This document shows positions 8,669 through 36,026 of a stretch of DNA of 46,796 bases, one piece after another (positions within the stretch are counted from its first letter, which is position 1; every line of letters starts with the position of its first letter). Position numbers and translations under genes: made by a program. This DNA comes from Microcoleus sp. FACHB-DQ6. Lineage in GTDB: Bacteria; Cyanobacteriota; Cyanobacteriia; Cyanobacteriales; Microcoleaceae. The stretch is taken from contig JACJNV010000360.1 in NCBI GenBank assembly GCA_014695175.1, positions 1 to 46,796 on the forward strand, in the 5' to 3' direction. The notes beneath the pieces were generated by a model, which was not told the origin of the DNA, did not search any database, and saw only the letters and a program-made list of their open reading frames with translations.

Positions 8669-8909
8669 GGCCTTACATAATTGCGGGGTGATTTTGATTG
8701 TTTTGTGGAATTGGCATCTGCCCTGTCGGTAGAAATTACCGCAATGGGAACTGATATTCAAGCCTGCTTCAGGAGGAGATTTAGAGCTGTTACTTGCTAA
8801 CATCCTAAAGGCTGAGCCTGTCTATATACTTGCAAGATTGCTTGCGGGGCATTACAAATAAGTGAGAAAATCTTCTCTCAACAGCCACTCATCCAGAAAA
8901 TCAAAAACG

Positions 8910-10007: not shown

Positions 10008-10083
10008 TTTGGGACATTAAGACTAAGAAGAAAAATAGGGCATCCCCAGCCCGAACCTACAGGATTTTAACTCACATTTTTAG

Positions 10084-11232: not shown

Positions 11233-11347
11233 ACAGAATCATACTCAGGTTAGGCCACAGTCGGCAAGCGGTAAGTTAAGCTCTTAATTTGTGCGCTGGT
11301 AGAATTTATTTTATTGATTTGCCCAAGTAGTGACAGGATGACTCAAA

Positions 11348-14300
11348 ATGCCCGATCCAAAAATATCGAGTTCATCGCCAAATGCCAGAGATTCTGTCAC
11401 GGTGGAGTTAGTTGAGTTTTTATCTTACCTTCGCAGTCTAGATATTAATATTTTTGTTGAGGGCGAGATCCTGCGCTGCAATGCTCCCGAAGGAATTCTT
11501 ACACCCGAACTGCGCGCCGAAATTTCTCATAAAAAAGCAGAAATTATTTCCTTTTTAAAAGCAGCTAATCGTACTTCGAGTTTCACTCCTACACCGATTG
11601 TTCCTATGGGGCGGGACGGAAATTTACCGCTTTCCTTTGCACAGCAGCGCTTGTGGTTTCTCGACCAATTAGTACCGAACAATCCTTTTTATAATGTTCC
11701 CGCAGCATTGCGCTTGACAGGTTCGCTCAATTTTTCGGCGCTGCAACAAACCTTCAATGAAATTGTGCGCCGCCACGAAGCTTTACGGACGACTTTAGCA
11801 GTAGTTTCGGGGCAACCTGTTCAGAGAATAGCTGCTGCTTTCCACCTCCCGATTAATGTAGTGGATTTGCGAAATTTGCCCAAGGAATCCCGACAAACTG
11901 AAGCAAACAGGCTCACCGCTGAGGAAGCTCAACGCTCTTTCAATTTGTCCAATGACTTGTTGCTGCGAGTCACATTATTGCAGTTAGATGATGCCGAATA
12001 TTTACTAATGCTGAATATGCACCATATTGTCTCCGATGGTTGGTCTATCGGAGTGCTTATTCAGGAATTAGGCGCACTTTACACGGCATTTGCTAGCGAA
12101 AAACCTTCGCCTTTACCGGCTTTATCGATCCAGTATGCTGATTTTGCAAAATGGCAGCGCGAATGGCTGCAAGGGGAAGTTTTAGAAACGCAGCTTGCTT
12201 ACTGGAGACAGCAGTTAAACGGCATTTCTATGCTAAATTTGCCTGCGGATAGACCCCGGCCAGCAATTCAAAGTTACCGAGGAAAAAGGCAATTTTTGCA
12301 ACTGCCAAAACAACTGAGCGAGGCTTTAGAAACGTTGAGCCAGCGCGAAGGAGTGACGCTGTTTATGACAATGCTGGCAGCTTTTAAAACGTTGCTTTAC
12401 CATTACGCGCAGCAAGAAGATATTGTTGTAGGTTCGCCGATCGCCAATCGCAACCGCAGTGAAATTGAAGCACTAATCGGTTTTTTTGTCAATAGTTTGG
12501 TATTGCGTACAGATTTGTCGGGAAATCCAACTTTTCGGGAACTTTTAAACCGAGTCAAAGAGGTAGCATTAGGAGCTTACGCTCACCAAGATTTGCCGTT
12601 TGAGAAGTTAGTAGAAGAACTGCACCCCGATCGCGCGTTGAACCAAAATCCCTTATTTCAGGTGGCATTTGCGCTGCAAAACGCGCCGGGGAATCAGTTA
12701 GAATTGCCAGAATTAACACTCAGCCCGCAGCAGTTAGATGTGGGTACAGCGCGGTTTGATTTGGAGTTTCATTTGTGGGAGCGATCGCCCAACAGTTCGG
12801 GAAGCAACCAATCGCCCAGCAATAAGCTGTGGGTTGATAGCTCTGAGGGCATCAGCGGCATGGTTATTTACAGCGCCGATTTGTTTGATGAAGCTACGAT
12901 TACCCGCCTGATCGGGCATTTTCAAACCTTGTTAGAAAGCATTGTGGCAAATCCCGAAGAGCGAATTGCCAACTTGCAATATTTGAGCGACCAAGAGCGC
13001 TATCATTTGTTAGTTGAATGCAACAAGACTCAGGCGGATTATCCGCAAGATTTGTGCATCCATCAGCTATTTGAAATGCAGGCCGATCGGACACCGGATG
13101 CGGTGGCGCTGGTATTTGGAGAGGAGCGAGTCACCTATCGAGAGCTAAATCTCCGCAGCAACCAACTAGCACGTTATTTGCAAAAAATGGGGGTTGGGGC
13201 GGAAGTTTTAGTCGGGCTTTGCTGCGGGCGATCGCTCGATCTGATCGTGGGGATGTTGGGTATCCTGAAAGCGGGAGGAGCTTACTTAATTTTAGATCCG
13301 AGCTATCCTGCTGAGCGATCGAGCTTTATGATAAAAGATGCTCAAGTGTCAGTATTGCTTACCCGCCAGGGAATAAATTCCCTGTCTAATAGCGAAAGTC
13401 GTCTAAAGACGACTGAAGGAGGACAAGTTTCCAGTCGGCTTCAGCCGACTTCAGCTATGAGCCAGGGAATTTATTCCCTGGTGGATGATGGCGAAGTGCA
13501 AAATTTAGAAACACAGTCAGATGATAAAATTCACCATCCAAGGGTTGTTTTTCTAGACACAGACTGGGAGATGATTTCCCAAGAAATCGCCGACAATCCC
13601 ACCAGCGCAGTCACAGCCGAAAATCTGGTTTACGCGATTTACACCTCCGGGTCCACGGGAAAGCCGAAAGGAGTGGAAATTGAGCACGGGAGCTTGTTAA
13701 ATCTCGTTTTTTGGCATCAAAGAGAGTTTGGGGTGTCAGCGGGCGATCGAGCAACGCAAATTGCAGCGATCGGCTTTGATGCTTGCGGGTGGGAAATTTG
13801 GCCTTATCTCGCCGCCGGATCTAGCATCTACTTTCCAGAAGATGACATCAGGCGAGATCCTGAAAAACTGCAAAACTGGTTAGTATCAAACGCCATTACA
13901 ATTAGCTTTTTGCCAACACCTTTAGCCGAGAAAGTTTTGCTATTAGATTGGCCTCAAACAACAGCGTTGCGAATCTTGCTCACAGGCGGCGAAAAACTGC
14001 AACAAAATCCTTTAAAATCCCATCCATTTAAGCTAGTAAATAATTACGGCCCAACCGAAAACACCGTCGTCACAACTTCCGGTTATATTCCTGTAACAGA
14101 GCAAACAGACATCGCCCCGACAATTGGCCGCCCCATTGCTAACACTCAAATCTACATATTAGACAAATATTTGCAGCCCGTACCAGTGGGCGTTGTTGGC
14201 GAATTGTACATCGGCGGAAACGGACTCGCTCGCGGCTACCTCAACCGCCCAGATTTAACCGCACAAAGCTTTATTGTCAATCCTTTTAAACCAAATTCAG

Positions 14301-16294
14301 GAGAGCGAATTTACAAAACCGGCGACTTAGTGCGCTACAGAACCGATCGCAACCTTGAATTTTTAGGACGCATTGACGAACAAGTAAAAATTCGCGGTTT
14401 CCGCATCGAATTAGGAGAAATCGAGACAGTATTAACTCAACATCCGGCCGTGCAGCAAACTGTAGCAATAGCTTCGGAAGATGGACAGGGAGATAAACGT
14501 TTAGTAGCTTATATTGCCCTGAATGCAGAATATAGCGTTGCCCGCGAAAAAAACCAAATAATGCAATTGCAGGACGAACAGGTGTTGCAGTGGCAAATGC
14601 TCTACAATGAAACTTACAATCAACCTGCTGTTGACTCAGATCCAACATTTAATATTGTCGGCTGGAATAGCAGTTATACTAATCAGCCAATCCCAGCAGA
14701 ACAGATGCGCGACTGGGCGAACAATCAAGCCGCCCAAATTTTAGCTTTGCAGCCTAGCCGAGTGTTAGAAATTGGCTGCGGCACAGGTTTGTTGCTGTTC
14801 CAAATTGCGCCTCGCTGCACTCAATACTGCGGCACCGACTTTTCACCTATTTCGCTCAACTATATTCAGCAGCACTTGGCAAATCAAGAGTTAGCTAATG
14901 TAACGCTGCTTCAGAAAATGGCGACTGACTTTGAAGGAGTAGAGACAGCAGCTTTTGACGCGGTGATTCTCAACTCAGTCGTGCAATACTTCCCGACTAT
15001 CGACTATCTCGTGCAGGTGCTAGAAGGTGCGGTGAAAGCAACTGCACCAGGCGGCTTTATATTCATCGGAGATGTCCGCAGCTTGCCGTTGCTGGCAGCT
15101 TTTCACGCTTCGGTACAACTGTATCAAGCCGAACCTTCTCTCGCGGGCGAACAGTTGCAGCAGCGAGTACAAATGCAAATTTTTCAAGAAACAGAGTTAG
15201 TTATTGAACCCGATTTTTTTAGCGCATTAAAGCACCGCTTTCCGCAGATTGGTGGCGTAGAGATTCAATTAATTCGCGGTAGTTATCACAATGAGTTAAC
15301 TGATTTTCGGTACAATGCTATTCTGCATATTGCGTCGGAAACAAATCCCCCCCAATCCCCGGAACAAGGGGAGTTGGGGGAATCGAAACGGCTGGATTGG
15401 TCGGCTGAAAATCAGAATCTGACTGTTACCAAGGTGCAACAAATATTATTGGAAAATCAACTCGATGTTTTAAGAATTGCTAATGTGCCTAATGCGCGGG
15501 TAATGGCAGCAGTTAAGGCGGCAGAGTTGCTGTCTGTTGTCGATAAATTTCCAACAGCAGGTCAGTTGCAGAAAGCCGTGGAAAAAGTCGAGGATTTAGG
15601 AGTAGATCCCGAAGCGTGGTATGCTTTGGAAGTTGCGTATAATGTTAATATTAGTTGGTCTAATTCCGACAGTCAAGGGCGCTACGATGTAGTGTTTGCA
15701 CGGGGCGAAATTAGAGATTTTGTGCCAGAAACCCGAGGCGATAACTTGCGTCCTTGGCGCTCTTATGCTAACAATCCCTTACAAGGTAAAGTAGCACGGA
15801 AATTAGTGCCACAGTTGCAGGCTTATCTAGCAGAAAAACTGCCGGAATATATGGTTCCGTCGGCTTTTGTGGTGCTGGAGTCGCTACCTGTGACGCCTAA
15901 CGGAAAGGTCGATCGCCTCGCTTTGCCTGCACCGCAGCCGATTAAGTTAGAATGGGCTGGCGGGTATGTTGCGCCTCAGACTTCTATTGAGGAAGTTTTA
16001 GTGAAAATTTGGGCTGAGGTATTGGGGATAAAGCGAGTGGGTATCCGGGACAATTTCTTTGAATTAGGAGGCCATTCGCTGCTGGCGACTCAGCTTGTTT
16101 CTAGAGTGCGAGATGCTTTCGCGGTAGAGTTGCCTTTGCGCCGCGTTTTTGAAGCACCGACAATTGCAGAATTATCGAAGATTGTGGAGAGTTTAAAAGA
16201 GAGCGATGCTAATATTAAAGCTCCTGCTTTAGTGGCGATTTCTCGGGACAGTCGGCGGATGAAGCTATCATCTTTTAATCAAGAAAGTAAATAA
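11348..16294 (+). CDS. Nonribosomal peptide synthetase, module 2 (TubC dock-C-A-NMT-T), N-methyl-Leu
   Basis: A 1648-residue single-module NRPS. Residues about 15-75 are a TubC-type N-terminal docking domain (VELVEFLSYLRSLDINIFVEG, LTPELRAEISHKK). The C domain has HHIVSDGWS at about 225. The A domain has TSGSTGKPKG at about 765 and RGFRIELGEIE. An N-methyltransferase is inserted after A8, with SAM-binding VLEIGCGTG near residue 1140. A10 is NGKVDRLALP, and the carrier Ser is in LGGHSLLA at about 1575. The pocket code read by eye is D-A-W-F-L-G-N-V-V-K, the classic leucine signature, so N-methyl-leucine is predicted. Two repeat elements are inserted in frame, at 13366-13481 and about 15347-15380. 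It is followed by NRPS3 after 37 bases, so the two are probably co-transcribed. Confidence 0.95.
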   Translation: MPDPKISSSSPNARDSVTVELVEFLSYLRSLDINIFVEGEILRCNAPEGILTPELRAEISHKKAEIISFLKAANRTSSFTPTPIVPMGRDGNLPLSFAQQRLWFLDQLVPNNPFYNVPAALRLTGSLNFSALQQTFNEIVRRHEALRTTLAVVSGQPVQRIAAAFHLPINVVDLRNLPKESRQTEANRLTAEEAQRSFNLSNDLLLRVTLLQLDDAEYLLMLNMHHIVSDGWSIGVLIQELGALYTAFASEKPSPLPALSIQYADFAKWQREWLQGEVLETQLAYWRQQLNGISMLNLPADRPRPAIQSYRGKRQFLQLPKQLSEALETLSQREGVTLFMTMLAAFKTLLYHYAQQEDIVVGSPIANRNRSEIEALIGFFVNSLVLRTDLSGNPTFRELLNRVKEVALGAYAHQDLPFEKLVEELHPDRALNQNPLFQVAFALQNAPGNQLELPELTLSPQQLDVGTARFDLEFHLWERSPNSSGSNQSPSNKLWVDSSEGISGMVIYSADLFDEATITRLIGHFQTLLESIVANPEERIANLQYLSDQERYHLLVECNKTQADYPQDLCIHQLFEMQADRTPDAVALVFGEERVTYRELNLRSNQLARYLQKMGVGAEVLVGLCCGRSLDLIVGMLGILKAGGAYLILDPSYPAERSSFMIKDAQVSVLLTRQGINSLSNSESRLKTTEGGQVSSRLQPTSAMSQGIYSLVDDGEVQNLETQSDDKIHHPRVVFLDTDWEMISQEIADNPTSAVTAENLVYAIYTSGSTGKPKGVEIEHGSLLNLVFWHQREFGVSAGDRATQIAAIGFDACGWEIWPYLAAGSSIYFPEDDIRRDPEKLQNWLVSNAITISFLPTPLAEKVLLLDWPQTTALRILLTGGEKLQQNPLKSHPFKLVNNYGPTENTVVTTSGYIPVTEQTDIAPTIGRPIANTQIYILDKYLQPVPVGVVGELYIGGNGLARGYLNRPDLTAQSFIVNPFKPNSGERIYKTGDLVRYRTDRNLEFLGRIDEQVKIRGFRIELGEIETVLTQHPAVQQTVAIASEDGQGDKRLVAYIALNAEYSVAREKNQIMQLQDEQVLQWQMLYNETYNQPAVDSDPTFNIVGWNSSYTNQPIPAEQMRDWANNQAAQILALQPSRVLEIGCGTGLLLFQIAPRCTQYCGTDFSPISLNYIQQHLANQELANVTLLQKMATDFEGVETAAFDAVILNSVVQYFPTIDYLVQVLEGAVKATAPGGFIFIGDVRSLPLLAAFHASVQLYQAEPSLAGEQLQQRVQMQIFQETELVIEPDFFSALKHRFPQIGGVEIQLIRGSYHNELTDFRYNAILHIASETNPPQSPEQGELGESKRLDWSAENQNLTVTKVQQILLENQLDVLRIANVPNARVMAAVKAAELLSVVDKFPTAGQLQKAVEKVEDLGVDPEAWYALEVAYNVNISWSNSDSQGRYDVVFARGEIRDFVPETRGDNLRPWRSYANNPLQGKVARKLVPQLQAYLAEKLPEYMVPSAFVVLESLPVTPNGKVDRLALPAPQPIKLEWAGGYVAPQTSIEEVLVKIWAEVLGIKRVGIRDNFFELGGHSLLATQLVSRVRDAFAVELPLRRVFEAPTIAELSKIVESLKESDANIKAPALVAISRDSRRMKLSSFNQESK
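13366..13481. repeat. Nested-palindrome element inserted in the NRPS2 adenylation domain
   Basis: Four palindromes lie in 116 bases: CAGGGAATAAATTCCCTG (13367-13384), AGTCGTCTAAAGACGACT (13397-13414), AGTCGGCTTCAGCCGACT (13433-13450) and CCAGGGAATTTATTCCCTGG (13462-13481). The outer pair are near-copies and so are the inner pair, giving a mirrored layout. The insert encodes about 40 extra residues between A2 and A3 that modules 1 and 3 lack. The frame is kept open. Confidence 0.85.
15347..15380. repeat. G/C-run palindrome inside NRPS2
   Basis: CCCCCAATCCCC is followed by GGAACAA and then GGGGAGTTGGGGG, forming a near-perfect hairpin. It encodes the Pro/Glu/Gly segment NPPQSPEQGELGES in the distal part of the N-methyltransferase region. 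It looks like a dispersed cyanobacterial palindrome carried in frame. Confidence 0.65.
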
Positions 16295-16331
16295 AAATTA
16301 GGACGGTAGAACGGGTGCAATTTCGATAAAT

Positions 16332-19300
16332 ATGCAGCAAGAAACAGAAGTTTTCGTCTTCCCGGCATCCTTTGCCCAGCAGCGGCTTTGGTTCCTCAAT
16401 CAATTAGCACCGGGCAATCCTTTCTACAATGTCTCAACAGCGCTCCGCTTAACAGGTTCCCTCAACTTAAGATCCTTAGAGCAAACCTTCAACGAAATTG
16501 TGCAGCGGCACGAAACTTTACGCACCACTTTTACGCTTTTGGAAGGGGAACTCGTACAAATTATTACTCCCATTCTCACTGTATCTCTCCCCACAATCGA
16601 CTTACAAAATCTCTCGCCAACTCAGCAGGAAACCGCAGCGCTGCAACTCGCAACCGATGCAGCGCAATGCCCTTTCGATTTAGCCACTGGGCCGTTATTC
16701 AAAGTAACGCTGTTACAACTCAGTGAAACAGAACATATATTGTTGCTGAATTTACATCATATTGTGGCTGATGGTTGGTCGATAGGAGTGCTAATTCGAG
16801 AGCTGGGAACGCTCTACACAGCATTTGTAAAAAATGGGAGCTCGCACTTACCAGCACTGCCCGTGCAGTACGCCGACTTTGCAGAATGGCAGCACGAATG
16901 GTTGCAGGGCGAAGTATTAGAAACCCAGTTAGCTTATTGGCGGCAGCAGTTAAACGGAATTACCACACTCAATCTACCAACAGACAGGCAAAGACCAGCC
17001 GTTCCATCCTACCGCGGCGCTAAACAATTTATAACACTATCACCTGCTTTGAGCGAGGCGCTAAAGTCATTGAGCCAGCAAGAAAGCGCGACTTTATTTA
17101 TCACTCTACTAGCCGCTTTTCAAACTTTGCTGTACCGCTATACAGGACAAGTAGATATTGCAGTAGGAACGCCGATCGCCAATCGCAACCAGAGCGAAAT
17201 AGAAGCATTAATCGGTTTTTTTGTCAACAGTTTAGTGCTGCGTGCAGATTTATCAGGAAACCCAACTTTTCGGGAACTATTGCATCGGGTAAAAAACGTC
17301 GCAATGGCAGCCTACGCCCACCAAGATTTGCCCTTCGAGAAGTTGGTTGAGGAAATGCACCCCGATCGCGAGTTGAGCCGCAACCCCCTATTTCAAGTTA
17401 GTTTTAGCCTGCAAAACACTCCTATAGCAGCGCTAGAATTGCCGGGAATCGCTTTCGAGGCGATCGACTTTGACGCGGGAACCGCCAAGCTCGATTTAGA
17501 GTGCCACTTGTGGGAAGATGCAGGAAGTATTCAAGGGCAATTTGTCTACAGCACAGACTTATTTGATAGCGGCACAATTGCGCGCATGGCGGGACATTTC
17601 CAAACGCTGCTCGAAGCCATTGTTGCCAATCCCAAACAGCACCTCAGCGACTTGGCTTTGCTGACAGCGCCAGAATACCAGCAATTATTAATCGATTGGA
17701 ATGACACTCAGAGAGATTATCCGCAAAACCAGTGTTTCCATCAGCTATTTGAAGATCGAGTCGCGCGATCGCCCGATGCTGTCGCCGCCGTCTTTGAAAA
17801 CCAGCAGTTAACCTACCGCCAACTCAACAGCCGAGGCAACCAACTTGCACGTTACTTGCAGCAGTTGGGAGCAGCACCAGAAGTTTTAGTGGGCCTTTGT
17901 GTAGAACGTTCCTTAGATGCGATCGTCGGATTGCTAGGCATTATCAAAGCAGGCGCAGCCTACCTGCCTTTAGATCCAACTTATCCTCAAGAGCGCCTTA
18001 ACTTCATGTTAGAAGATGCTCAGGTGTCGATTTTGGTAACTCAGCAGCACTTAGCAAAAAACTTAACGCAGCCGGAAAATTACGGAGTTTTTTCAGTAGT
18101 GCGTTTGGACTCCGACAGAGAAATTATCGCCCGACAAAGCCCAGAAAACCCAACTACAAATATCATACCAGAAAACCTAGCCTACGTCATTTACACATCA
18201 GGTTCAACCGGAAAACCTAAAGGCGTTTTAATCGAACATCGGGGACTCTACAACTTAGCCCTAGCTCAAAGAAAAGCTTTTAACTTAAACTCAAATCACC
18301 GCATTTTGCAATTTGCATCCCTGAGTTTTGATGCCTCAATCTTTGAGATTGTCATGGCCTTGGGAACCGGAGCAACACTTTACTGTGCCAAGAAAGAATC
18401 TTTGTTGCCCGGACAAACATTAATCCAATTTTTGCAGAACAATGCTATTACCCACGCTACCCTCCCGCCCTCGCTGCTAGCTGTCCTTCCAAACGCCGAA
18501 CTTCCGGCACTGCAAACAATCATCTGTGCTGGCGAATCCTGTTCCCCGGATATTGTTAAACGCTGGGCTTCTGGGCGCAGATTTTTTAACGCTTACGGCC
18601 CTACAGAAGCGACTGTCTGGTCAAGTTTGGCCGAAATTGGCGATTCCCTGCGGGATAGCTTCGCTTCACGCAAAAAACCGCCAATCGGCCGCCCAATAGC
18701 TAACACTCAACTCTATATTTTAGATAAAAATTTACAGCCTGTACCCGTTGGAATTCCCGGTGAATTGTACATCGGCGGCAGCGGATTGGCGCGAGGCTAC
18801 CTGAACCGCCCCGAATTAACCGCCCAGCGATTTATTGCTAATCCGTTTAGCCAGAAAGCAGGAGAACGAATTTATAAAACTGGTGACTTAGCTCGCTATT
18901 TTCCCGACGGCAATATTGAGTTTTTAGGCCGCACTGACGCACAGGTAAAACTTCGCGGTTATCGAATAGAATTGGGAGAAATTGAAGCGCTGCTGGTTCA
19001 GCATCCAGCAGTCAAAGAAACAGCGGCGGTTGCTGTGGATGATTTGTCGGGCAACAAACGCCTAGTTGCTTATGTCGTCCCCAATCACAATCAGACGCTT
19101 AATCCCGGGGAAATACGCAATTTCCTCAAACAACAACTGCCCAATTACATGGTTCCCAGTGCTTTTGTGGCGATCGATTTTCTGCCCCTAACTCCCAATG
19201 GCAAAATTGACCGCCTGCGCCTACCTGCACCGGGAACTCTAACTAGCAATTCAATAGATAAAAGCTGCATTGCACCTCGCACACCAACCGAGTCAACCCT

Positions 19301-20405
19301 CGCCCAAATTTGGGCCCAAATCCTCAACGCAGAGTGCGTTGGCATTGGCGACAACTTCTTCGATTTGGGTGGAGATTCCCTGCTGGCAATCCGCCTCATC
19401 AATGAGATTAACCAGCAATTTCAGCGCGAATTGCCGCTGTCTGCTCTTTTTTTAAATCCGACAATTGAAGGTTTAGCCGATTCGCTATCTTCAGAAACAA
19501 ATTCTCTGGAATGGTCGCCTTTAGTTGCAATTAAGCCTCGCGGTAAAAATCCCCCGTTCTTCTGCGTCCATCCCATCTTTGGCGTCGTATTTCCTTATGT
19601 CGAGTTAGCGTTTCAGCTAGGAGAAAATCAACCGTTTTACGGGCTGCAACCAAAGGGGATTGACGGCGAAAGTTCTCCGTTAACTAGCATTGAAGACATG
19701 GCGACTGACTACATCGCAGCCTTGCGAACAGTTCAACCAAAAGGGCCTTATTTTTTAGGAGGTTGGTCTTTTGGAGGTTTGGTTGCTTTTGAGATGGCTC
19801 AACAGTTGCTCGCAGCGGGGGATGAAGTGGCTTTACTTGCTGTGCTGGATAATTTAGCGCCGGTTTCTGCTAACAAACCTTCTTTTTGGGATGGTTGCAA
19901 GTTTATTCTGACTACTGTTTCGCGCTCTATCTGGCCTTTTGTAGTAGATTATTTTCGCTTAGTGGCTGCGGCAGAAAATGTTCAAAGTGGCGGTATTGCG
20001 GCCAAATTTCCGAAATTAAATAAGATGCTTAATTTGGCTGCTAATTTTTGGCATCGCTGGAATTGGAAACAGGCCATTATGGTTAGCATCCTATCTCAGG
20101 AGTCAAAAGAAAGGAGCTGGCGCGAGCTGGCAATTCCCTCGATGTTTACTGTATTTCAGGCTAATAGTCAAGCAACTCTCAGCTATGTACCGAAAATTTA
20201 TCCGCAGCGAATTACTCTGTTTAGATCGAGGGAACAGCTAAGCATGAGTCATCAAGATCCGACTCTTGGCTGGAGTGAATTAACGACGGAAAAAGTAGAG
20301 GTGATTAGAGTTCCTGGGAATCATCTTACTATGCTGAGAAAGCCAGGGGTCGAAGTGCTGGCTCAACAGCTAAAGCATTGCTTGGAGAAAGAATTAAGTG
20401 ATTGA
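16332..20405 (+). CDS. Nonribosomal peptide synthetase, terminal module 3 (C-A-T-TE)
   Basis: A 1357-residue terminal module. The C domain has HHIVADGWS at about 142. The A domain has TSGSTGKPKGV at about 622, NAYGPTEATVW, YKTGDLARY, RGYRIELGEIE and NGKIDRLRLP. The carrier Ser is in LGGDSLLA at about 1014. Residues 1085-1357 are a type I thioesterase with nucleophile in GWSFGG at about 1146, an Asp in AVLDNLAP and His in PGNHLTML. The pocket code read by eye is D-A-F-T-I-A-A-V-W-K, close to aromatic (Phe-type) codes but with an unusual Trp near the end, so the substrate is uncertain. There is no N-terminal docking domain and no epimerase. A 26-bp repeat interrupts the A domain at 18646-18671 without breaking the frame. 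The TE releases the product by hydrolysis or cyclisation. Confidence 0.94.
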   Translation: MQQETEVFVFPASFAQQRLWFLNQLAPGNPFYNVSTALRLTGSLNLRSLEQTFNEIVQRHETLRTTFTLLEGELVQIITPILTVSLPTIDLQNLSPTQQETAALQLATDAAQCPFDLATGPLFKVTLLQLSETEHILLLNLHHIVADGWSIGVLIRELGTLYTAFVKNGSSHLPALPVQYADFAEWQHEWLQGEVLETQLAYWRQQLNGITTLNLPTDRQRPAVPSYRGAKQFITLSPALSEALKSLSQQESATLFITLLAAFQTLLYRYTGQVDIAVGTPIANRNQSEIEALIGFFVNSLVLRADLSGNPTFRELLHRVKNVAMAAYAHQDLPFEKLVEEMHPDRELSRNPLFQVSFSLQNTPIAALELPGIAFEAIDFDAGTAKLDLECHLWEDAGSIQGQFVYSTDLFDSGTIARMAGHFQTLLEAIVANPKQHLSDLALLTAPEYQQLLIDWNDTQRDYPQNQCFHQLFEDRVARSPDAVAAVFENQQLTYRQLNSRGNQLARYLQQLGAAPEVLVGLCVERSLDAIVGLLGIIKAGAAYLPLDPTYPQERLNFMLEDAQVSILVTQQHLAKNLTQPENYGVFSVVRLDSDREIIARQSPENPTTNIIPENLAYVIYTSGSTGKPKGVLIEHRGLYNLALAQRKAFNLNSNHRILQFASLSFDASIFEIVMALGTGATLYCAKKESLLPGQTLIQFLQNNAITHATLPPSLLAVLPNAELPALQTIICAGESCSPDIVKRWASGRRFFNAYGPTEATVWSSLAEIGDSLRDSFASRKKPPIGRPIANTQLYILDKNLQPVPVGIPGELYIGGSGLARGYLNRPELTAQRFIANPFSQKAGERIYKTGDLARYFPDGNIEFLGRTDAQVKLRGYRIELGEIEALLVQHPAVKETAAVAVDDLSGNKRLVAYVVPNHNQTLNPGEIRNFLKQQLPNYMVPSAFVAIDFLPLTPNGKIDRLRLPAPGTLTSNSIDKSCIAPRTPTESTLAQIWAQILNAECVGIGDNFFDLGGDSLLAIRLINEINQQFQRELPLSALFLNPTIEGLADSLSSETNSLEWSPLVAIKPRGKNPPFFCVHPIFGVVFPYVELAFQLGENQPFYGLQPKGIDGESSPLTSIEDMATDYIAALRTVQPKGPYFLGGWSFGGLVAFEMAQQLLAAGDEVALLAVLDNLAPVSANKPSFWDGCKFILTTVSRSIWPFVVDYFRLVAAAENVQSGGIAAKFPKLNKMLNLAANFWHRWNWKQAIMVSILSQESKERSWRELAIPSMFTVFQANSQATLSYVPKIYPQRITLFRSREQLSMSHQDPTLGWSELTTEKVEVIRVPGNHLTMLRKPGVEVLAQQLKHCLEKELSD
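18646..18671 (+). repeat. Dispersed 26-bp repeat, copy inside NRPS3
   Basis: It begins CCCTGCGGGATAGC and ends TCGCTTCACGC, matching the intergenic copy at 4942-4967 (opposite strand) with one mismatch. It encodes GDSLRDSFASRK between the YGPTE motif and the PPIGRP motif, a loop that is shorter in modules 1 and 2. It is in frame. Confidence 0.8.
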
Positions 20406-28676: not shown

Positions 28677-30107
28677 TCAGGGACGGCGCCACTTGTTGAG
28701 ATAAGCTTCGCCAATCCCAGCCACAGCCTGCATTTGACCTAGCTGTTCCCGTAAAGCTTTGATGGTTCTTAGCTGTTCTTGATACTGTTGTTGCAAAGCG
28801 TCGTAATTTCGCTGTATCGCCGCACTCTGGTTCAATTGATTTTCTAGAGATTGCAACTTGCTCAGTTGAACTTGGAATTCGCCGATCGCACTTGACTTTT
28901 CTGCTAACTCGTGCTCCAAAGATTCGTAACTCGACTGCGACACGGTTTCCTGCAATTGGCTTTCGAGATTTTGCTTTTCGGTGGCGAATTGCTGCTGCAA
29001 AGATTCCAGAGCACTGGATTTTTCGGCGAATTGCTGCTGCAAAGATTCCAGAGCACTGGATTTTTCGGCTAGCTGCTGCTGAAATTCGTGTTCCCGGTGT
29101 TCTCTTTCGGCCAATTGCTGCTGTAAAGATTCCAGAGCACTGGATTTTTCGGCTAACTGCTGCTGAAACTCGTGTTCCCGGTGTTCTTTTTCAGCAACTT
29201 GCTGCTGCAAAGAAGCGATCGAACTTTCGCGTTCACTCAACTGCTGCTGTAAACTTTCGTAACTTGACTTCGCTACTGTTTCCTGCAATTGGCTTTCGAG
29301 ATTTTGCTTTTCGGTAGCGAGTTGCTGCTGCAAAGAAGCGATCGAACTTTCGCGTTCACTCAACTGCTGCTGTAAACTTTCGTAACTTGACTTCGCTACT
29401 GTTTCCTGCAATTGGCTTTCGAGATTTTGCTTTTCGGTAGCGAGTTGCTGCTGCAAAGAAGCGATCGAACTTTCGCGTTCAGCCAACTGCTGCTGTAAAC
29501 TTTCGTAACTTGACTTCGCTACTGTTTCCTGCAATTGGCTTTCGAGGTTTTGCTTTTCGGTAGCGAGTTGCTGCTGTAAAGAAGCGATCGAACTTTCGCG
29601 TTCACTCAACTGCTGCTGTAAACTTTCGTAACTTGACTTCGCTACTGTTTCCTGCAATTGGCTTTGGAGATTTTGCTTTTCGGTAGCTAATTGCTGCTGC
29701 AAAGAAGCGATCGAACTTTCGCGTTCACTCAACTGCTGCTGTAAACTTTCGTAACTTTCTTGCAGCGGATTTGGCTTTACACTCACCGAGTCCGATAGAG
29801 TTTCTGCCGTTACAGCGTCATTAAGCTCGCTTTCTTCGGCTGTTTCCCCTTGCAAGTCGGGGGTCTCTACCTGCGTTTCTTCACCTTTTTTCCAAGTGAC
29901 AGTAACTTCCGTCTTGTCCTTAGAAATATCCAGAGCGCCTTGTGCCAAGCGTTCTAGGAGTTCCGACCTTGATATTCCGAGCTTGCGAGCGATCACGTTT
30001 AATCGATCGGCACTAGAAGAAGTCAGCGAAAGTCCGACTTTGACTTTGCTGTCTGAATTGGAACTAACTACATTGCGATTTTTTTTGACCATTGGCATTT
30101 TCCTCAT
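28677..30107 (-). CDS. Ribbon-helix-helix-like N-terminus with long tandem-repeat coiled coil
   Basis: A 476-residue protein of unknown function. Residues 20-62 (KVKVGLSLTSSSADRLNVIA then LGISRSELLERLAQGAL) resemble a small ribbon-helix-helix DNA-binding domain. Residues 115 onward are almost pure Gln/Glu/Leu coiled coil: about five copies of a 41-residue unit (SYESLQQQLSERESSIASLQ and so on), then shorter EKSSALESLQQQ and EREHREHEFQQQ units. The very C-terminus is IKALREQLGQMQAVAGIGEAY. A DNA-binding head on a long rod recalls KfrA-like or structural chromosome proteins, but that is analogy only. The ATG at 30107 is used; an ATG at 30092 preceded by GAGG is an alternative. Confidence 0.8.
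   Translation of the reverse strand: MRKMPMVKKNRNVVSSNSDSKVKVGLSLTSSSADRLNVIARKLGISRSELLERLAQGALDISKDKTEVTVTWKKGEETQVETPDLQGETAEESELNDAVTAETLSDSVSVKPNPLQESYESLQQQLSERESSIASLQQQLATEKQNLQSQLQETVAKSSYESLQQQLSERESSIASLQQQLATEKQNLESQLQETVAKSSYESLQQQLAERESSIASLQQQLATEKQNLESQLQETVAKSSYESLQQQLSERESSIASLQQQLATEKQNLESQLQETVAKSSYESLQQQLSERESSIASLQQQVAEKEHREHEFQQQLAEKSSALESLQQQLAEREHREHEFQQQLAEKSSALESLQQQFAEKSSALESLQQQFATEKQNLESQLQETVSQSSYESLEHELAEKSSAIGEFQVQLSKLQSLENQLNQSAAIQRNYDALQQQYQEQLRTIKALREQLGQMQAVAGIGEAYLNKWRRP
29221..29835 (-). repeat. 123-bp tandem repeat (about five copies) in coding sequence
   Basis: The marker GAACTTTCGCG recurs at 29221, 29344, 29467, 29590 and 29713, exactly 123 bp apart. 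Each unit encodes 41 residues of coiled coil. Neighbouring copies differ by only a few bases, which indicates recent expansion or conversion. The 41-residue period is one short of six heptads. Confidence 0.92.
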
Positions 30108-30152: not shown

Positions 30153-30917
30153 TTAATTCTTGTTACTTACCAATTGTGCCAGCTTGCGTTCCAAATTGAA
30201 CAAAAAGCCGTGAATGTATTCTTCGATCCATTTCTCGCCGTAGAACCGCTTAAACATTCCCCGGGTCGGTTTTTTTTCGGCAAGATACGGCAGATAGCAC
30301 AGTTGAGCTTGTCAGATACTATCTAACTTTGCGCCCGATGTCACTGGTTCGGCGCGATCGACCAAATCCAAATAAGCCGCCAGATAGTCTTTGAACGCTG
30401 CAAAAACGCGAGTTTCCAAAACTTCCGTTTCCTTGGGGCGAGTCCACAGGAACGGCGACGAGAAAAACTGCTTCGCTTCCTGTAGAAAGTCGCCACCCCA
30501 GGGAAGGTGCGGTTGATGAGCTTGAAAAATTTGTTCGATCGCTCCAGTATACTTAGGCTGCTAGTCAGCCTCGCCGCCAAACAGAGGCTGCATATCCAAA
30601 GTAATTAAATGGCCACCCGGCAGCGTTACCAAATCCGCGCCAAAAAACGGCAAATCAAAGTTAAGATGCGGGAATATCACAAAATAGAGAACTTGCAACC
30701 TTCTGCCGTCTTGAACGTGATCCACCCCAAACTGCTGCAAATTCCGGGATGCAAAAGCCTAACTGATAGTTACGATTTCCTGAGTTGGTTTTTTTCCTGT
30801 GCCGACTGTAGCTTCCTTGAGTTCAAACCCTTGTGGAATCTGGTAATACTGTAAGTCTAACCAATTTTAAATTTTAGCGATCGCCGCATCTAAAAAAGCC
30901 TGATAAAGACTGATATC
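30153..30917 (-). pseudogene. pebB: pebB pseudogene (phycoerythrobilin:ferredoxin oxidoreductase), four in-frame stops
   Basis: Read on the minus strand, one continuous frame of about 255 codons matches the ferredoxin-dependent bilin reductase family, most like PebB. It contains [79 protein letters not shown] and [15 protein letters not shown]. Four stops interrupt it, all in the same frame: TAA at 30867-30869, TAG at 30759-30761, TAG at 30561-30563 (where family members probably have Trp) and TGA at 30312-30314. No frameshift is present. The start codon also appears lost, replaced by ATC/GAT next to a heptamer repeat. PebB makes phycoerythrobilin for phycoerythrin. The frame ends with TAA at 30153-30155, close to family length. 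Confidence 0.88.
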
Positions 30918-31097: not shown

Positions 31098-31240
31098 TCA
31101 TCGCGAGTTCGCGGTTACAGCTAAAGGCACAGCATCTTCAAACAAAAATTTCTCAAGAAATTTCTCAGCGAATTCGTGACCGAAATAACTGCTAAACAAT
31201 CCCCAAGCCTGCTCTCTGTCTGCACTGTATCCGTAACATA
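31098..31240 (-). pseudogene. pebA: pebA C-terminal remnant
   Basis: On the minus strand this frame encodes YGYSADREQAWGLFSSYFGH then EFAEKFLEKFLFED, and stops at TGA (31098-31100). It resembles the C-terminus of 15,16-dihydrobiliverdin:ferredoxin oxidoreductase (PebA), the enzyme just before PebB in the pathway and usually just upstream of pebB in operons. That is exactly its position here. Sequence above 31240 does not look like the family, so roughly the first three-quarters of the gene is gone. Confidence 0.6.
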
Positions 31241-31340: not shown

Positions 31341-31997
31341 TTACAGCGAAGCTTCCAAAGTCGCACCTGCAACCCGATGATCTCGATCTTTTGCCAAATA
31401 GCTCACAGCAGCGCGAGCTTGAGGATTGTCAAATTTGCTCAGCGCGCGAGCAACTCGCAGCCGAATTCCCCAATAATCGGCGCTCACAAGAGGTAATAAT
31501 TGCTGCAAAGCCTCTTCTTGCTTCTGGGTATTGGCCAGCAGACCAAATCCGTCAATTGCTACTTCCTGAACTGGTAAATCTTCGCCGCCAAGAGCGATCG
31601 CACAAATTTCAAATACTGCATCAGGACACTGCATTTCATACAGCGGAGCCATAATGCTGCGGCGGACGAGCCAATTGTCATCGCGACGAAAAGCTTCGAC
31701 TAAATGAGAAATTGCCTCGGTTCCGAACCTTGACAAAGAGTTAGCGGCTTCTGCTCGCACGTTCGGATCGCGATCGAACTGCATCATTTTTAACAGCGCC
31801 GCAAAAGCTTCCGCAGTTTGAATCTGCCGCAATCCCATCGCCACGAACGATCGCACCATAAACTCGCGATCGTCCACTTTACTCAGCAACATCGGTAGCG
31901 CCACCGCAGAATCGCACTTTCTCAGAGCCGTTACCCCCCGCAGCCTGTCTTGAGAATCCGAACTTTGCAGCGCTGCTTGGATTTCGCTAATTTCCAT
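31341..31997 (-). CDS. HEAT-repeat protein
   Basis: A 218-residue protein made of about six HEAT repeats: RLRGVTALRKCDSAVALPML, FMVRSFVAMGLRQI, NVRAEAANSLSRFG, WLVRRSIMAPLYEM, PVQEVAIDGFGLLA and GIRLRVARALSKFD. Such proteins in cyanobacteria include phycobilisome lyase subunits and chaperones (CpcE, CpeY, CpeZ types). Its position beside pebAB remnants makes a phycoerythrin-related role possible, but HEAT sequences diverge too freely to assign by eye. The gene is intact with no signs of decay. Confidence 0.8.
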   Translation of the reverse strand: MEISEIQAALQSSDSQDRLRGVTALRKCDSAVALPMLLSKVDDREFMVRSFVAMGLRQIQTAEAFAALLKMMQFDRDPNVRAEAANSLSRFGTEAISHLVEAFRRDDNWLVRRSIMAPLYEMQCPDAVFEICAIALGGEDLPVQEVAIDGFGLLANTQKQEEALQQLLPLVSADYWGIRLRVARALSKFDNPQARAAVSYLAKDRDHRVAGATLEASL

Positions 31998-32291: not shown

Positions 32292-33194
32292 CTAATTATC
32301 CCGCGCATAAAATCCCAAATGATTGGAAACTGGACGTTCTTGCATGGGGATTTTATTCTGAATCGGAGCATTCAACAGTTTCGCTCCTGACGGCGATGCT
32401 ACTGCAAAACTTACCGACCCGCCGCCATCTAAATTTAGCACTGTCTCGGCTCCCAACTGCATCGAAATATCAGTTATTTCGCTCAATTTCAGCCCTTCAC
32501 TGTAAAGCCTCTGCTTGCCGTCTACCAGAATTAACCACAACTTGTCGCCTGTTTTGTCGATCGCCGCGACTGCACGGGGATATGGTTTATCCTGTTTGCG
32601 TTCTTCCTGACTTTGTGCTACAGATTGGCCATTTTTCACCAGCAAAGTATCTCCGGCAACTGCATAGGCTGTCCCTGCAGGACAAGTGCCGTTTTCGATT
32701 ATTTGAGCGCGGTTTTTGGCATCAAAACAAAGGGCGGGAAAGCCTGGATCTGGTTGAGAATAAGCTTGGCTTTTGGCAATGGCGTGTCCGACATTATTTA
32801 CTCGATCGCCACTGCGGGGGTAGTAATCCCAAGGTGCTTTCTCGATGCAGGGATAAAAAAAATTGCCGTTGACTGCTAATTGCAATTTAAATTCTTTGAG
32901 GAATTCAGTAGCGGTGCGGGCATTGGTTTCTGTTAAATCGGCTGTTGGGTTTCCGGGAGTGACAAAAATTCCTATTCCCGGCGCTTTTAGGTCGATGCTA
33001 ACAATGTGAATTAGGGTGGGACGCGGATTAGTCCGAAATTCCCTGCGGTAGCCTATTCCTTGAAAGAGCGATCGCGCTTCGTTTGTTTGTTCGGGACGCA
33101 AAAAGTAGGGAATGTTGTAGAGTAGTATTGGTGCGAGCAATATTCCGAGACCGAGAATATGCCAAATTTGTTTGAGAGTGGGTCGATCAGTCAT
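32292..33194 (-). CDS. Phosphodiester glycosidase (NAGPA-like) family protein
   Basis: A 300-residue protein with an N-terminal membrane anchor or uncleaved signal (WHILGLGILLAPILLYNIPYFL) and an exported domain of the phosphodiester N-acetylglucosaminidase-like family. Family features are LAVNGNFF, NNVGHAIA, YPRAVAAID, LWLILVDG and the strong ETVLNLDGGGSVSFAV near the C-terminus. Members act on exopolysaccharide or spore-cortex glycans; the substrate here is unknown. It is probably periplasmic. Confidence 0.85.
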   Translation of the reverse strand: MTDRPTLKQIWHILGLGILLAPILLYNIPYFLRPEQTNEARSLFQGIGYRREFRTNPRPTLIHIVSIDLKAPGIGIFVTPGNPTADLTETNARTATEFLKEFKLQLAVNGNFFYPCIEKAPWDYYPRSGDRVNNVGHAIAKSQAYSQPDPGFPALCFDAKNRAQIIENGTCPAGTAYAVAGDTLLVKNGQSVAQSQEERKQDKPYPRAVAAIDKTGDKLWLILVDGKQRLYSEGLKLSEITDISMQLGAETVLNLDGGGSVSFAVASPSGAKLLNAPIQNKIPMQERPVSNHLGFYARDN

Positions 33195-33268
33195 ACCATT
33201 TTAGATTTGAGATGGGGGACGGGAACACTGAGAGATTTATTATATATTTTCCAGCATCCTGTACTAAT

Positions 33269-34078
33269 ATGAAGTATTCGGATTCCAATAATTTTAGCAA
33301 TCAAATTTTACGAAATCGATCGTTCCAAGGACAAGTTCTTAACGGTGCTGATTTCAGCGGTGCGGATGTTCGAGGCTGCAATTTTAGAAATGCTCAGTTA
33401 GCGGGTGCGAATTTTCTAGGTGCAAAAATCGGGCTTTCTCGGCGACAGATTGCTGTTTTGAGTGCTGGGGCGATCGCGATTTGTTTGCTTGTGGGCGATG
33501 TTCTGACTCGACTGATTTTGGGAGTTCAAGGACAAATATCGGAGTCTCGCAGTTGGCCTTTTGTTCTGTTGCTGTACGGGGTTTTGAGCGCTGCTGGTTT
33601 CGCTTCGGCGATCGCCAGCAAACAGCCAAAAACTTCAAAAGCGGGTAGATTGGCACGAACAATTTCTGCTATTCTATCAGGAGCTTTGTTGGGATTTTTC
33701 TATGCTGGCACTGCAACTAATAATAATTCCCAGGCTGCTCTTGCTGGAATGGCGATCGGCGGGGTGTTAATGTTTTTTGTGAGTTCCCGGATTGGTGGTC
33801 AATTTGCACAGGTGGCGATCGCATCGGCTGGAAGTGTGGCGACTTACGCAGCGGCTTTTTTGTTCAGTGCAACGGCGAGCGCTTTTCTGAGCACTTACAA
33901 ACTGTTTTCGGGTATGTGTTTCGGTTTGCTGTCGCTGCTGTATCTTTGGTTTGCGTTTGTGTCTTTCTCGGCTATTGTTCGAGAGATTGGAAATGCTGAG
34001 GGTACTTCGTTCAGAGGGGCAAATCTCGCTGATGCTAAGTTCGATATAAGTTACCTCAATCTAAAATCTAAAATTTAA
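33269..34078 (+). CDS. Pentapeptide-repeat membrane protein, C-terminally truncated
   Basis: A 269-residue protein starting at ATG 33269 (an ATG at 33212 adds 19 unlike residues). It opens with pentapeptide repeats (NRSFQGQVLNGADFSGADVR then NAQLAGANFLGAK), followed by five or six membrane helices. It then begins a second repeat block, GTSFRGANLADAKFD, which stops abruptly in ISYLNLKSKI, encoded by the TCTAAAA heptamer array. Relatives usually continue with many more pentapeptides, so the end looks lost at the repeat. Function unknown. Confidence 0.75.
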   Translation: MKYSDSNNFSNQILRNRSFQGQVLNGADFSGADVRGCNFRNAQLAGANFLGAKIGLSRRQIAVLSAGAIAICLLVGDVLTRLILGVQGQISESRSWPFVLLLYGVLSAAGFASAIASKQPKTSKAGRLARTISAILSGALLGFFYAGTATNNNSQAALAGMAIGGVLMFFVSSRIGGQFAQVAIASAGSVATYAAAFLFSATASAFLSTYKLFSGMCFGLLSLLYLWFAFVSFSAIVREIGNAEGTSFRGANLADAKFDISYLNLKSKI

Positions 34079-34088: not shown

Positions 34089-34451
34089 TCCCCGACTGAT
34101 ATTCAAACAGCAATTGAGCCTGCAGAAAGCGACGCTTTGCTGCAAACGGTGAGGGAGCAAATGGCCCTGGCAACTTTCAATCCCAGCGACAGCGAACTGC
34201 TCAAAAAGATGGTCGAATGTATGGGAGATTCGCAGGGAATGGTGAGGCTGAGTTTAGCCGAAACTCTCGGCTCAATTGGCAAACCTGCAACTCCTTTTTT
34301 GCTGGAAGCTCTAGCACATCACCTCAACCCTGTCGTGCGTAGAGCCTCTGCTAAAACGCTGACTCTGATTTGCGAGGCGATCGCCCCAACCACGCTGCAG
34401 AAGCTTTTTTACACGATGAGGATCAAGTCGGGGGAGGAAGAGTGGGATTAA
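34086..34451 (+). pseudogene. Bilin-lyase-like HEAT protein fragment, frameshifted
   Basis: An open frame from the heptamer array encodes AIEPAESDALLQTVREQMAL and HEAT units (QGMVRLSLAETLGSIGKPA, HHLNPVVRRASAKTLTLI) similar to phycobilin lyase-type HEAT proteins (CpcE/CpeY group). After residue TLIC the frame departs. In the +1 frame, the same bases read AAEAFLHDEDQV, which continues the HEAT pattern, so a frameshift lies at about 34375-34395. Both ends are missing. It is most likely a relic of a lyase gene; which lyase is unclear. Confidence 0.6.
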
Positions 34452-34767
34452 AGACAAAGCCTGCGGTTTCCAACCGCGCCTACACAGACAAAACCCACTT
34501 GGAGTGGGTTAAAGAATTTTTACTCGATCGGGCCTTGACATCTTCCTCTCAAAATGAGAGGATAAGCAGAGTAGCCAAACAAAACAGCAAAACAGGTATT
34601 GTAGGGTGCGTCAGTTTTAAGGCGTTTTCCATGTATAGTCAGTGTTCTAGCTGACGCACCCTACGTGGATAGTTAGTGGTTTAAATGCTCCACAGCTTAT
34701 GCAACCAAAAGTGTCAACAAATTAGCAATCACTATGCAAAACAAAATAAAAAATAAAAGAAAAAGAA
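34452..34767. other. Hairpin-rich spacer before the toxin-antitoxin pair
   Basis: No gene is seen. It contains AACCCACTTGGAGTGGGTT (hairpin, about 34490-34509) and the 64-bp inverted repeat at 34601-34664. An A-rich run precedes the higB start. Confidence 0.5.
34601..34664. repeat. 64-bp miniature inverted-repeat element
   Basis: GTAGGGTGCGTCAG (34601-34614) and its exact complement CTGACGCACCCTAC (34651-34664) flank 36 bases. The whole element could fold as one hairpin. A related GCGCACCCTAC end is found near 41085, suggesting a dispersed family. Confidence 0.8.
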
Positions 34768-35067
34768 ATGCACCTAATCTCGATCCGCAACCTCCGTAAT
34801 GATGCTGCCCAGTATCCCGATGTCAAAAATCAAATTGATAGCTGGAACGCAACTGTAAAACAAGCAGAATGGCAGAATCTGGAGGATGTTCGCAAGATTT
34901 ACCGAGATGCCGAAGCAGTAGGAAACTTCACAGTCTTTAATATCAAAGGCAACGAATATCGCCTGATTGTCGGCATCAACTACGAGGAGCAAACTATTTT
35001 CTACAAATATTTCCTAACCCACGCTGAATACGACAAAGACAAATGGAAAAATGATCCTTACTTTTGA
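34768..35067 (+). CDS. higB: HigB-type mRNA interferase toxin
   Basis: A 99-residue RelE-superfamily toxin of the HigB family. It shows RNLRNDAAQYPDVKNQIDSW, a DVRKIYRDAEAVGNFTVFNI strand segment, GNEYRLIVGINYEEQTIFYK and the typical end FLTHAEYDKDKWKNDPYF. It cleaves mRNA on the ribosome. The stop overlaps the antitoxin start by 17 bases, and the toxin-first order is characteristic of higBA loci. Confidence 0.88.
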   Translation: MHLISIRNLRNDAAQYPDVKNQIDSWNATVKQAEWQNLEDVRKIYRDAEAVGNFTVFNIKGNEYRLIVGINYEEQTIFYKYFLTHAEYDKDKWKNDPYF

Positions 35068-35449
35068 TGGAGCCACTTATAGCAAATTGCTTGCAGAAAT
35101 CGCTCCTAGGGCGATCGAAACCGAAGAGGAATACGATCGCCTCCTGGCTGTGGCAGAACGGCTAACGTTCGCTAAAAACCTCACTCCAGAGGAGAGAGCT
35201 TTATACAAGTTGTTAGTCACGCTGATTGAAGTTTATGAGACAGAAAATTATCCGATGGACAAATCTGAGCCTCATGAGATTTTGCAACACATCATGGAAT
35301 CCAGCGGCACCCGTCAAGCGGACTTGGTAGGTATCATCGGATCGAGCGGTGTGGTGTCTGAGGTTGTGAATGGGAAAAGAGCGATTAGCAAGGCACAAGC
35401 TAAGGCACTAGGCGATTATTTTAAAATCTCACCTAGCTTGTTCATTTAA
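35051..35449 (+). CDS. higA: HigA-type antitoxin with XRE helix-turn-helix domain
   Basis: A 132-residue antitoxin. The C-terminal half is a helix-turn-helix (EILQHIMESSGTRQADLVGI, SGVVSEVVNGKRAISKAQAK, ALGDYFKIS) that should bind the operon promoter. The N-terminal half likely wraps HigB. It overlaps the toxin gene by 17 bases, so the pair is translationally coupled. Confidence 0.88.
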   Translation: MILTFDGATYSKLLAEIAPRAIETEEEYDRLLAVAERLTFAKNLTPEERALYKLLVTLIEVYETENYPMDKSEPHEILQHIMESSGTRQADLVGIIGSSGVVSEVVNGKRAISKAQAKALGDYFKISPSLFI

Positions 35450-35610
35450 TTTGGAAATTGGGCATTGCCCATAGGGCATTGGTTATTTGTGATTAGAAAA
35501 ACTACTAACCAGTAACCACTAACTATTACCCAATGGTTTTCTACTATTGGCATTATATCTGGGCGTGTTTTTCCCCGCGATCGCCCTAAATTACACTCCA
35601 AAATATAAAA

Positions 35611-35653
35611 GCGAGATCCCTTGATTGTTCTAAAAGAATTCAAGGGATCTCGC
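35611..35653 (-). terminator. Hairpin terminator downstream of tRNA-Ser
   Basis: GCGAGATCCCTTGA (35611-35624) and TCAAGGGATCTCGC (35640-35653) form a perfect 14-bp stem. On the minus strand it is followed by TTTTATATTTT, a good intrinsic terminator for the tRNA gene 75 bases upstream. Confidence 0.8.
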
Positions 35654-35727
35654 TCTAATCAAAGTATTTATCTCATATCAGAGATTTTTGTTGCAAGCTG
35701 TTTATTTTGCCTAAACAGCTTGTTTAA

Positions 35728-35812
35728 CGGAGAGGGAGGGATTCGAACCCTCGTTAAGTTGCCCTAAACACACTTTCCAGGCGTGCGCCTTCAACCGCTC
35801 GGCCACCTCTCC
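35728..35812 (-). tRNA. trnS: tRNA-Ser (GGA anticodon)
   Basis: An 85-base class II tRNA. The acceptor arm starts GGAGAGG and pairs with CCTCTCC. The D region is TGGCCGAGCGGTTGAAGGC, the anticodon loop CTGGAAA gives GGA, a long variable arm spans GTGTTTAGGGCAACTTAAC, and the T arm is GAGGGTTCGAATCCCTC. No CCA is encoded. Confidence 0.95.
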
Positions 35813-35993
35813 AGGGCTAAATTCATTCATTTAGCCACAGCTAAACTATATTAGCAGAACAAATCTGATTTGGGAAGGGGTAACGGCATAAATTTGCTGT
35901 TTAATATGGGTAGGGTGTGAAACGGGCAGGCTTGGGTTCTCCTCCCGGGGTCGCAAACCCATTCATTTCAAGGATCTTGCCCCGCCAACCCCA

Positions 35994-36023
35994 ATCTAAA
36001 ATCTAAAATCTAAAATCTAAAAT
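35994..36023. repeat. TCTAAAA heptamer array upstream of the ferredoxin gene
   Basis: About four units end only three bases before the ferredoxin ATG, replacing any normal ribosome-binding site. The rest of 35813-36026 holds no gene. Confidence 0.75.
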
Positions 36024-36026
36024 TCC

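Follow-up and report, generated by a model that had tools for sequence, protein, structure and literature searches.

The locus described here lies on contig JACJNV010000360.1 of Microcoleus sp. FACHB-DQ6 (assembly GCA_014695175.1; 6.72 Mb in 402 contigs, 98% complete; abbreviated as G000), and ‘the window’ denotes the whole stretch of DNA that was analysed, i.e. positions 1–46796 of that contig. On the minus strand of the window, a PebB-like (phycoerythrobilin:ferredoxin oxidoreductase) frame can be translated over its full length at 30153–30917, with four in-frame stops and no frameshift, and it closes at its natural stop codon (30155–30153). The bilin reductase family PF05996 matches 30195–30887 (minus strand; model positions 3–228 of 228, E 1e-60), far above chance and with all four stops inside the match. 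Alignment with five intact pebB copies of the same locus (in genomes G004, G009, G015, G021, and G027) delimits the relic, from its lost start codon (30914–30912) to its natural stop, as 30153–30914 on the minus strand. Its identity as pebB follows from its position in this alignment, in which the intact G015 and G004 copies pass the NF009723 cut-off; it differs from the G015 copy at 94 of 756 nt. A first-pass annotation made from the letters alone had placed the frame and its stops correctly and had added that there was no indel: there is indeed no frameshift, but one codon is inserted in frame relative to the aligned intact relatives, an insertion common to four relics.

Two of the four stops, all on the minus strand, are private to G000. 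The TAA at 30867–30869 stands where the five intact copies and the three sister relics alignable there have a Lys codon, and the TAG at 30561–30563 replaces a Tyr codon found in the five intact copies and in the relics of G018, G020, G024, and G008 (His in G011). The TAG at 30759–30761 is common to G000, G018, G020, and G024, the five intact copies having Tyr, and the TGA at 30312–30314 recurs in G018 and G020 and is TAA in G024 and G011, with Leu in the five intact copies and in the G008 relic. (G012 reads TTA at this last site and was left uncounted, because a deletion breakpoint at this very point marks the start of its relic.) The earlier suggestion that two of the stops arose by C-to-T or G-to-A changes, from Gln to TAA and Trp to TAG, is thus wrong: the intact copies at the locus have Lys, Tyr, Tyr, and Leu codons, and each of the four stops requires a transversion from these.

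The genes around the frame are those of a phycoerythrin (PE) cluster, here called type A, whose order can be read on one contig of G004 as crtD-RHH-pebB-pebA-HEAT-NAGPA-pentapeptide-lyase-like-cpeB-cpeA-cpeY-cpeZ and in pieces in G009, G021, G015, and G027. This order is preserved in the window, although pebB is broken, only stubs of pebA and the lyase-like gene are left, and cpeBAYZ is gone. The remnant of pebA, upstream of the pebB frame, comprises about its last 43 codons (31098–31229, minus strand; PF05996 model positions 198–228 at 31137–31229, E 1.7e-4, below the family cut-off). About 690 nt present in intact relatives are absent: the gap runs from the HEAT–pebA spacer into pebA, as far as about codon 201, and its junction was placed by eye at about 31228/31229. 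The lyase-like gene, which belongs to the HEAT-repeat proteins and encodes 302 aa in G004 and G009, survives as a relic at 34095–34412 (plus strand; 77–82% identity by tblastn) that has lost its start codon and is cut after about codon 108; stubs of it are also found in G011, G012, G020, and G024. Between this relic and a ferredoxin gene, at 34413–36026, lies the site that, by tblastn synteny, is occupied in G021 by the type-A cpeB-cpeA-cpeY-cpeZ genes. In the window, the gap holds a HigB toxin gene (34768–35067, PF09907), a 132-aa ORF, and a tRNA-Ser (ARAGORN), and tblastn gave no match to cpe genes anywhere in the window. The type-A cpeY and cpeZ were named by similarity to a cluster in G011 whose CpeY passes the NF058505 cut-off; the type-A lyase gene beside cpeY is presumably cpeZ.

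Three genes of the old cluster are still open in the window. An intact NblB-like HEAT-repeat gene (31341–31997, minus strand; NF045915 E 1e-31, below its cut-off) has a pairwise dN/dS of 0.12–0.18 between G000 and G018, G020, G024, and G012 and of 0.25 against G011; it has outlived the PE cluster and is under purifying selection, and because the value is 0.12–0.18 against the PE-less G018, G020, and G012, it has a use without PE. The intact phosphodiester glycosidase (NAGPA) gene at 32292–33194 (minus strand; PF09992 E 1e-26) gives 0.24–0.32 against the same four genomes and 0.66 against G011. The pentapeptide-repeat gene at 33212–34078 (plus strand; PF00805) gives 0.63–1.02 against five X-clade genomes (defined below) and 0.40–0.49 against the PE-bearing G004 and G009; it appears relaxed and seems to be next in line for loss, possibly a pseudogene in the making. 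On the other side of pebB, the window encodes at 28677–30107 a ribbon-helix-helix protein with a long coiled coil of 123-bp tandem units (4.5 copies, 97% matches), the matched length of which varies between relatives. Farther away, 5333–20405 encodes nonribosomal peptide synthetases, recognised by their condensation and AMP-binding domains, and a 78% match to this region in G011 carries one TGA and one TAG inside; a 1111-aa ORF considered as a species marker was dropped on proving to be nonribosomal peptide synthetase, and rpoB and crtD were used instead.

Part of the damage is not confined to G000. The approximately 690-nt pebA deletion, the loss of the pebB start, and two of the stops (one reading TAA in G024) are common to G000, G018, G020, and G024, and the pebA deletion junction is identical in all four. 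As these genomes belong to different species, the common lesions predate the split of the four, unless they were exchanged, and the recent loss that the first-pass annotation had put forward does not fit them. The trees of rpoB, crtD, and pebB conflict within the X clade, i.e. the rpoB clade of G000, G011, G012, G015, G018, G020, and G024, and crtD puts G024 outside that clade (support 97). Recombination, or a mixed assembly in G024, may lie behind this conflict.

Selection on the relic was estimated by codon-model likelihood from ten sequences (five relics, that of G011 being partial, and five intact copies), with stop and gapped codons treated as missing. The dN/dS ratio was 1.03 on the relic branches, 0.64 on the stem, and 0.087 on the intact branches; allowing the relics a separate ratio gave a 2dlnL of 68.8, and fixing that ratio at 1 a 2dlnL of 0.02, so that it does not differ from 1. 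Private changes fall on the three codon positions as 20:25:10 in four relics versus 12:5:35 in the five intact copies (chi-square p 5e-7). A ratio near 1, which the first-pass annotation had named, together with absence of bilin, as a sign of a pseudogene, is what comparison with intact homologues yields. That pebB is here a neutral pseudogene is strongly supported, because its dN/dS is 1.03, its start is lost, its partner pebA is deleted, and no PE genes were found. Compared with a functional PebB (PF05996, NF009723), the frame is homologous over its full length and matches the bilin reductase family, but it contains four stops and offers neither a start-bearing ORF, nor purifying selection, nor a PebA partner to supply dihydrobiliverdin.

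Four nonsense changes without a frameshift had been called unusual, and the numbers say otherwise. From 50–80 random substitutions on the G015 gene, a mean of 1.5–2.5 stops is expected, and the probability of at least four is 0.05–0.24, depending on the number and the substitution model; four stops are on the high side, yet within expectation. Small frameshifts do occur in sister relics (2-nt in G018 and G020; 1-nt in G020, G024, and G011), and an eye count of the alignment gives four such indels for approximately 143 expected substitutions on the relic branches, so that the chance of no frameshift on the G000 line is 0.15–0.39 for 67 down to 34 substitutions. The pattern in G000 is not unusual, and the substitution-biased decay invoked to account for it is unneeded, since the sister relics carry frameshifts and the chance of none here is 0.15–0.39.

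The mutation spectrum was also recorded. Between G000 and G018, there are 739 transitions to 985 transversions over 40401 aligned bases of the window (1–46796), and 139 transitions to 256 transversions outside hand-listed ORFs, where 74 of the 395 differences are C<>G. At fourfold rpoB sites, C<>G is the commonest of the six classes in 14 of 15 X-clade pairs and in 2 of 7 other pairs; against such an excess, fitted rate matrices keep C-T above C-G in every set. Little transition bias together with many C<>G changes would favour the conversion of Tyr codons to TAG.

A full-length frame with stops nevertheless invites other readings. It is tempting to suppose that recoding or read-through of the stops lets the frame still make PebB, as the first-pass annotation had allowed; the unbroken frame and the PF05996 match at E 1e-60 are what one would expect if so. 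Yet all three stop codons occur inside the frame and all three also end ORFs of the window (29 hand-picked ORFs end with TAA 14 times, TAG 8 times, and TGA 7 times), and a protein free of constraint (dN/dS 1.03, near the value of 1 that speaks against this reading), with its start lost, pebA gone, and no CpeB found in the genome, leaves this reading hardly credible; a full-length frame with stops need not imply recoding. We think it very improbable, although less so, that a second function, such as a regulatory RNA or a short peptide, has kept approximately 760 nt free of frameshifts in G000: the relics of G018, G020, G024, G011, and G012 have frameshifts or large deletions, substitutions are neutral, the chance of no frameshift is appreciable as given above, and no Rfam family is present at the locus (at the gathering threshold, the matches in the window were two tRNAs and an L10 leader, none of them here). 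Nor do we give any real credence to the idea of a working gene marred by errors of sequencing or assembly. G000 is a 402-contig assembly, but other assemblies, among them the single-contig genomes G018 and G020, show two of its stops, the missing start, and the pebA deletion as well, and the lyase-like gene is broken too.

The rest of the G000 genome agrees with the loss of PE. PF05996 finds three places in it, namely the pebB relic, the pebA stub, and the intact C38, which passes the PcyA cut-off (NF002760) and is the sole intact bilin reductase found. A phycobiliprotein search gave 10 places, with the C366 pair passing the phycocyanin beta and alpha cut-offs; the CpeB query matched only the C366 phycocyanin beta (at E <= 1e-40, a threshold that a badly broken cpeB would escape). 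Intact PebAB and PE linkers were not found in the 402 contigs (98% complete). Among 11 genomes searched for linker domains, six were counted in each of G000, G018, G020, G012, and G023 and nine in each of the PE-bearing G024, G011, G004, and G015; G028 has seven and G013 has five.

The genus set comprises 29 genomes, all of which matched DNA of the relic locus, several only via another pebAB or a short 3' piece. The five with an intact pebB at the locus (G004, G009, G015, G021, and G027) keep both pebA and pebB intact there and have a CpeB 82–85% identical to the query. Another 16 (G001, G002, G003, G005, G006, G007, G008, G010, G011, G016, G017, G019, G022, G024, G025, and G026) have their intact pebAB at another place, together with a CpeB at 73–76%, here called B-type, and G014 represents another type (CpeB 80%). 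CpeB was not found in 6 of the 29 (G000, G012, G018, G020, G023, and G028), and none of the 29 has both pebAB pairs intact. PE-cluster genes adjoin the B-type pebAB in 11 of the 16; in the remaining five (G003, G005, G007, G008, and G026), cpeB is on the same contig. Ten of the 16 give one more PF05996 match (E <= 0.001; in three the family cut-off is not reached), and all ten lie by synteny at the relic locus. A search of plasmids yielded distant pebAB only, on three plasmids.

In G028, pebA is apparently frameshifted, and pebB is divided between two contigs near codon 122, the sort of break that an insertion would leave (L046, L048); cpeZ and cpeY are stop-free over the matched part, and only the end of cpeA is matched. 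The PE system of this genome looks freshly broken. G013 has B-type cpeBA, cpeY, and cpeZ (L268:6081–9511) with the five linker domains mentioned above, and an intact pebAB was not found in it; it may be an incomplete assembly or a system in transition. As a side observation, an orphan allophycocyanin-like protein of 188–192 aa, far below the phycobiliprotein cut-offs, is encoded next to the NblB-like gene in each of the two types of PE cluster (L061:3576–4145; L069:7240–7818).

On a single 7.5-Mb contig of G011, an A relic (at 1228343) accompanies an intact B cluster whose pebB is at 1178038. The gene order of this B cluster resembles a circular permutation of that in G001, G010, G016, G019, and G024. 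In the tree of B-type pebA+pebB DNA (17 rows; groups named after the first tree, and root G014 long-branched), G011 joins G002 (98/95); a constraint uniting G011 and G024 is rejected (AU p 1e-78), as is forcing G002 with its rpoB companions G005, G022, and G025 (p 2e-4). In the rpoB tree (G007 30% filled, six rows of odd composition), G011 and G024 instead fall within the X clade (100/100), and a grouping of G011 with G002 is disfavoured (p 0.019). Both G002 (640 contigs, completeness 74%) and G024 (670 contigs, contamination 4%, and placed outside the X clade by crtD) may be mixed assemblies; with the two removed, G011 still stands outside the other B rows, and forcing it with its rpoB companions G001, G003, G007, G016, and G019 is rejected (p 0.001).

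These trees bear on whether the genus pattern needs any transfer. If an ancestor had possessed both systems and lineages had then lost either one, with no later acquisition of B, A relics would be expected beside intact B clusters, as they are found in many genomes. Near-identical B-type cpeZ remnants with a TGA inside also occupy equivalent positions in G011, G020, and G012 (L203:1007–1127; L265:8330–8456; L263:7127–7250, respectively), adjoining NMT1-like and histidine-kinase genes; they suggest that, in this clade, the site formerly held a B cluster that was then lost. Against such an ancestor, the B-type pebAB of G011 departs from rpoB whether or not the two weaker assemblies, G002 and G024, are included, and not one of the 29 genomes retains both pairs; we therefore regard differential loss from a doubly equipped ancestor as doubtful. 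On balance, we lean, by a small degree, towards PE in Microcoleus being a revolving trait, in which an older system decays in place and lineages already without it, or in the course of losing it, take up a second, horizontally moving cluster.

Taken together, the frame is almost certainly a dead pebB in a decaying type-A PE cluster, in a genus in which PE loss is recurrent and another, mobile PE cluster supplies pebAB in some lineages. The course of events would have begun when PE became dispensable, PcyA and phycocyanin remaining. The cpeBAYZ genes were probably deleted, the HigB module now filling their gap. After the common lesions, pebB drifted unconstrained, G000 gaining two further stops. 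Across the genus, there have been several losses of the type-A system, and in some lineages, of which G011 is the best case, pebAB now comes from another PE cluster that moves between lineages.

By kind, the frame is an ordinary pseudogene within a larger PE-cluster scar, which is a known kind of thing; the lineage pattern is the interesting part. Its closest precedent is the horizontal transfer of a PE gene cluster between strains of Planktothrix (Tooming-Klunderud et al. 2013, as cited in PMC9366434 and PMC4349496). As those citing papers present it, a PE cluster moves there, too, between strains of a filamentous genus, and pigment state departs from the strain tree; in Microcoleus, by comparison, the old system persists as stepwise relics at its own locus, once on the same contig as the other cluster. 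In marine Synechococcus, PMC2246261 describes rod genes whose evolution, separate from that of the core, proceeds through duplication, transfer, and loss, with pebA and pebB in the PE region; that is another lineage, whereas in Microcoleus the lost system has left relics that can be placed in a time sequence. A literature search by title and beginning of the abstract gave, among the matches listed, no paper on pebAB relics in Microcoleus.

The 28 relatives and G000 thus form a ladder of one loss, from the five intact clusters through the fresh break in G028 and the near-full relics of G000, G018, G020, and G024 to 3' scraps in others. This ladder lets the order and the repeatability of PE loss, and whether the replacement cluster came before or after, be tested directly. 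If the revolving trait is real, red colour would have been lost and regained among close relatives, and the relic in the window would be a time stamp of one such loss.
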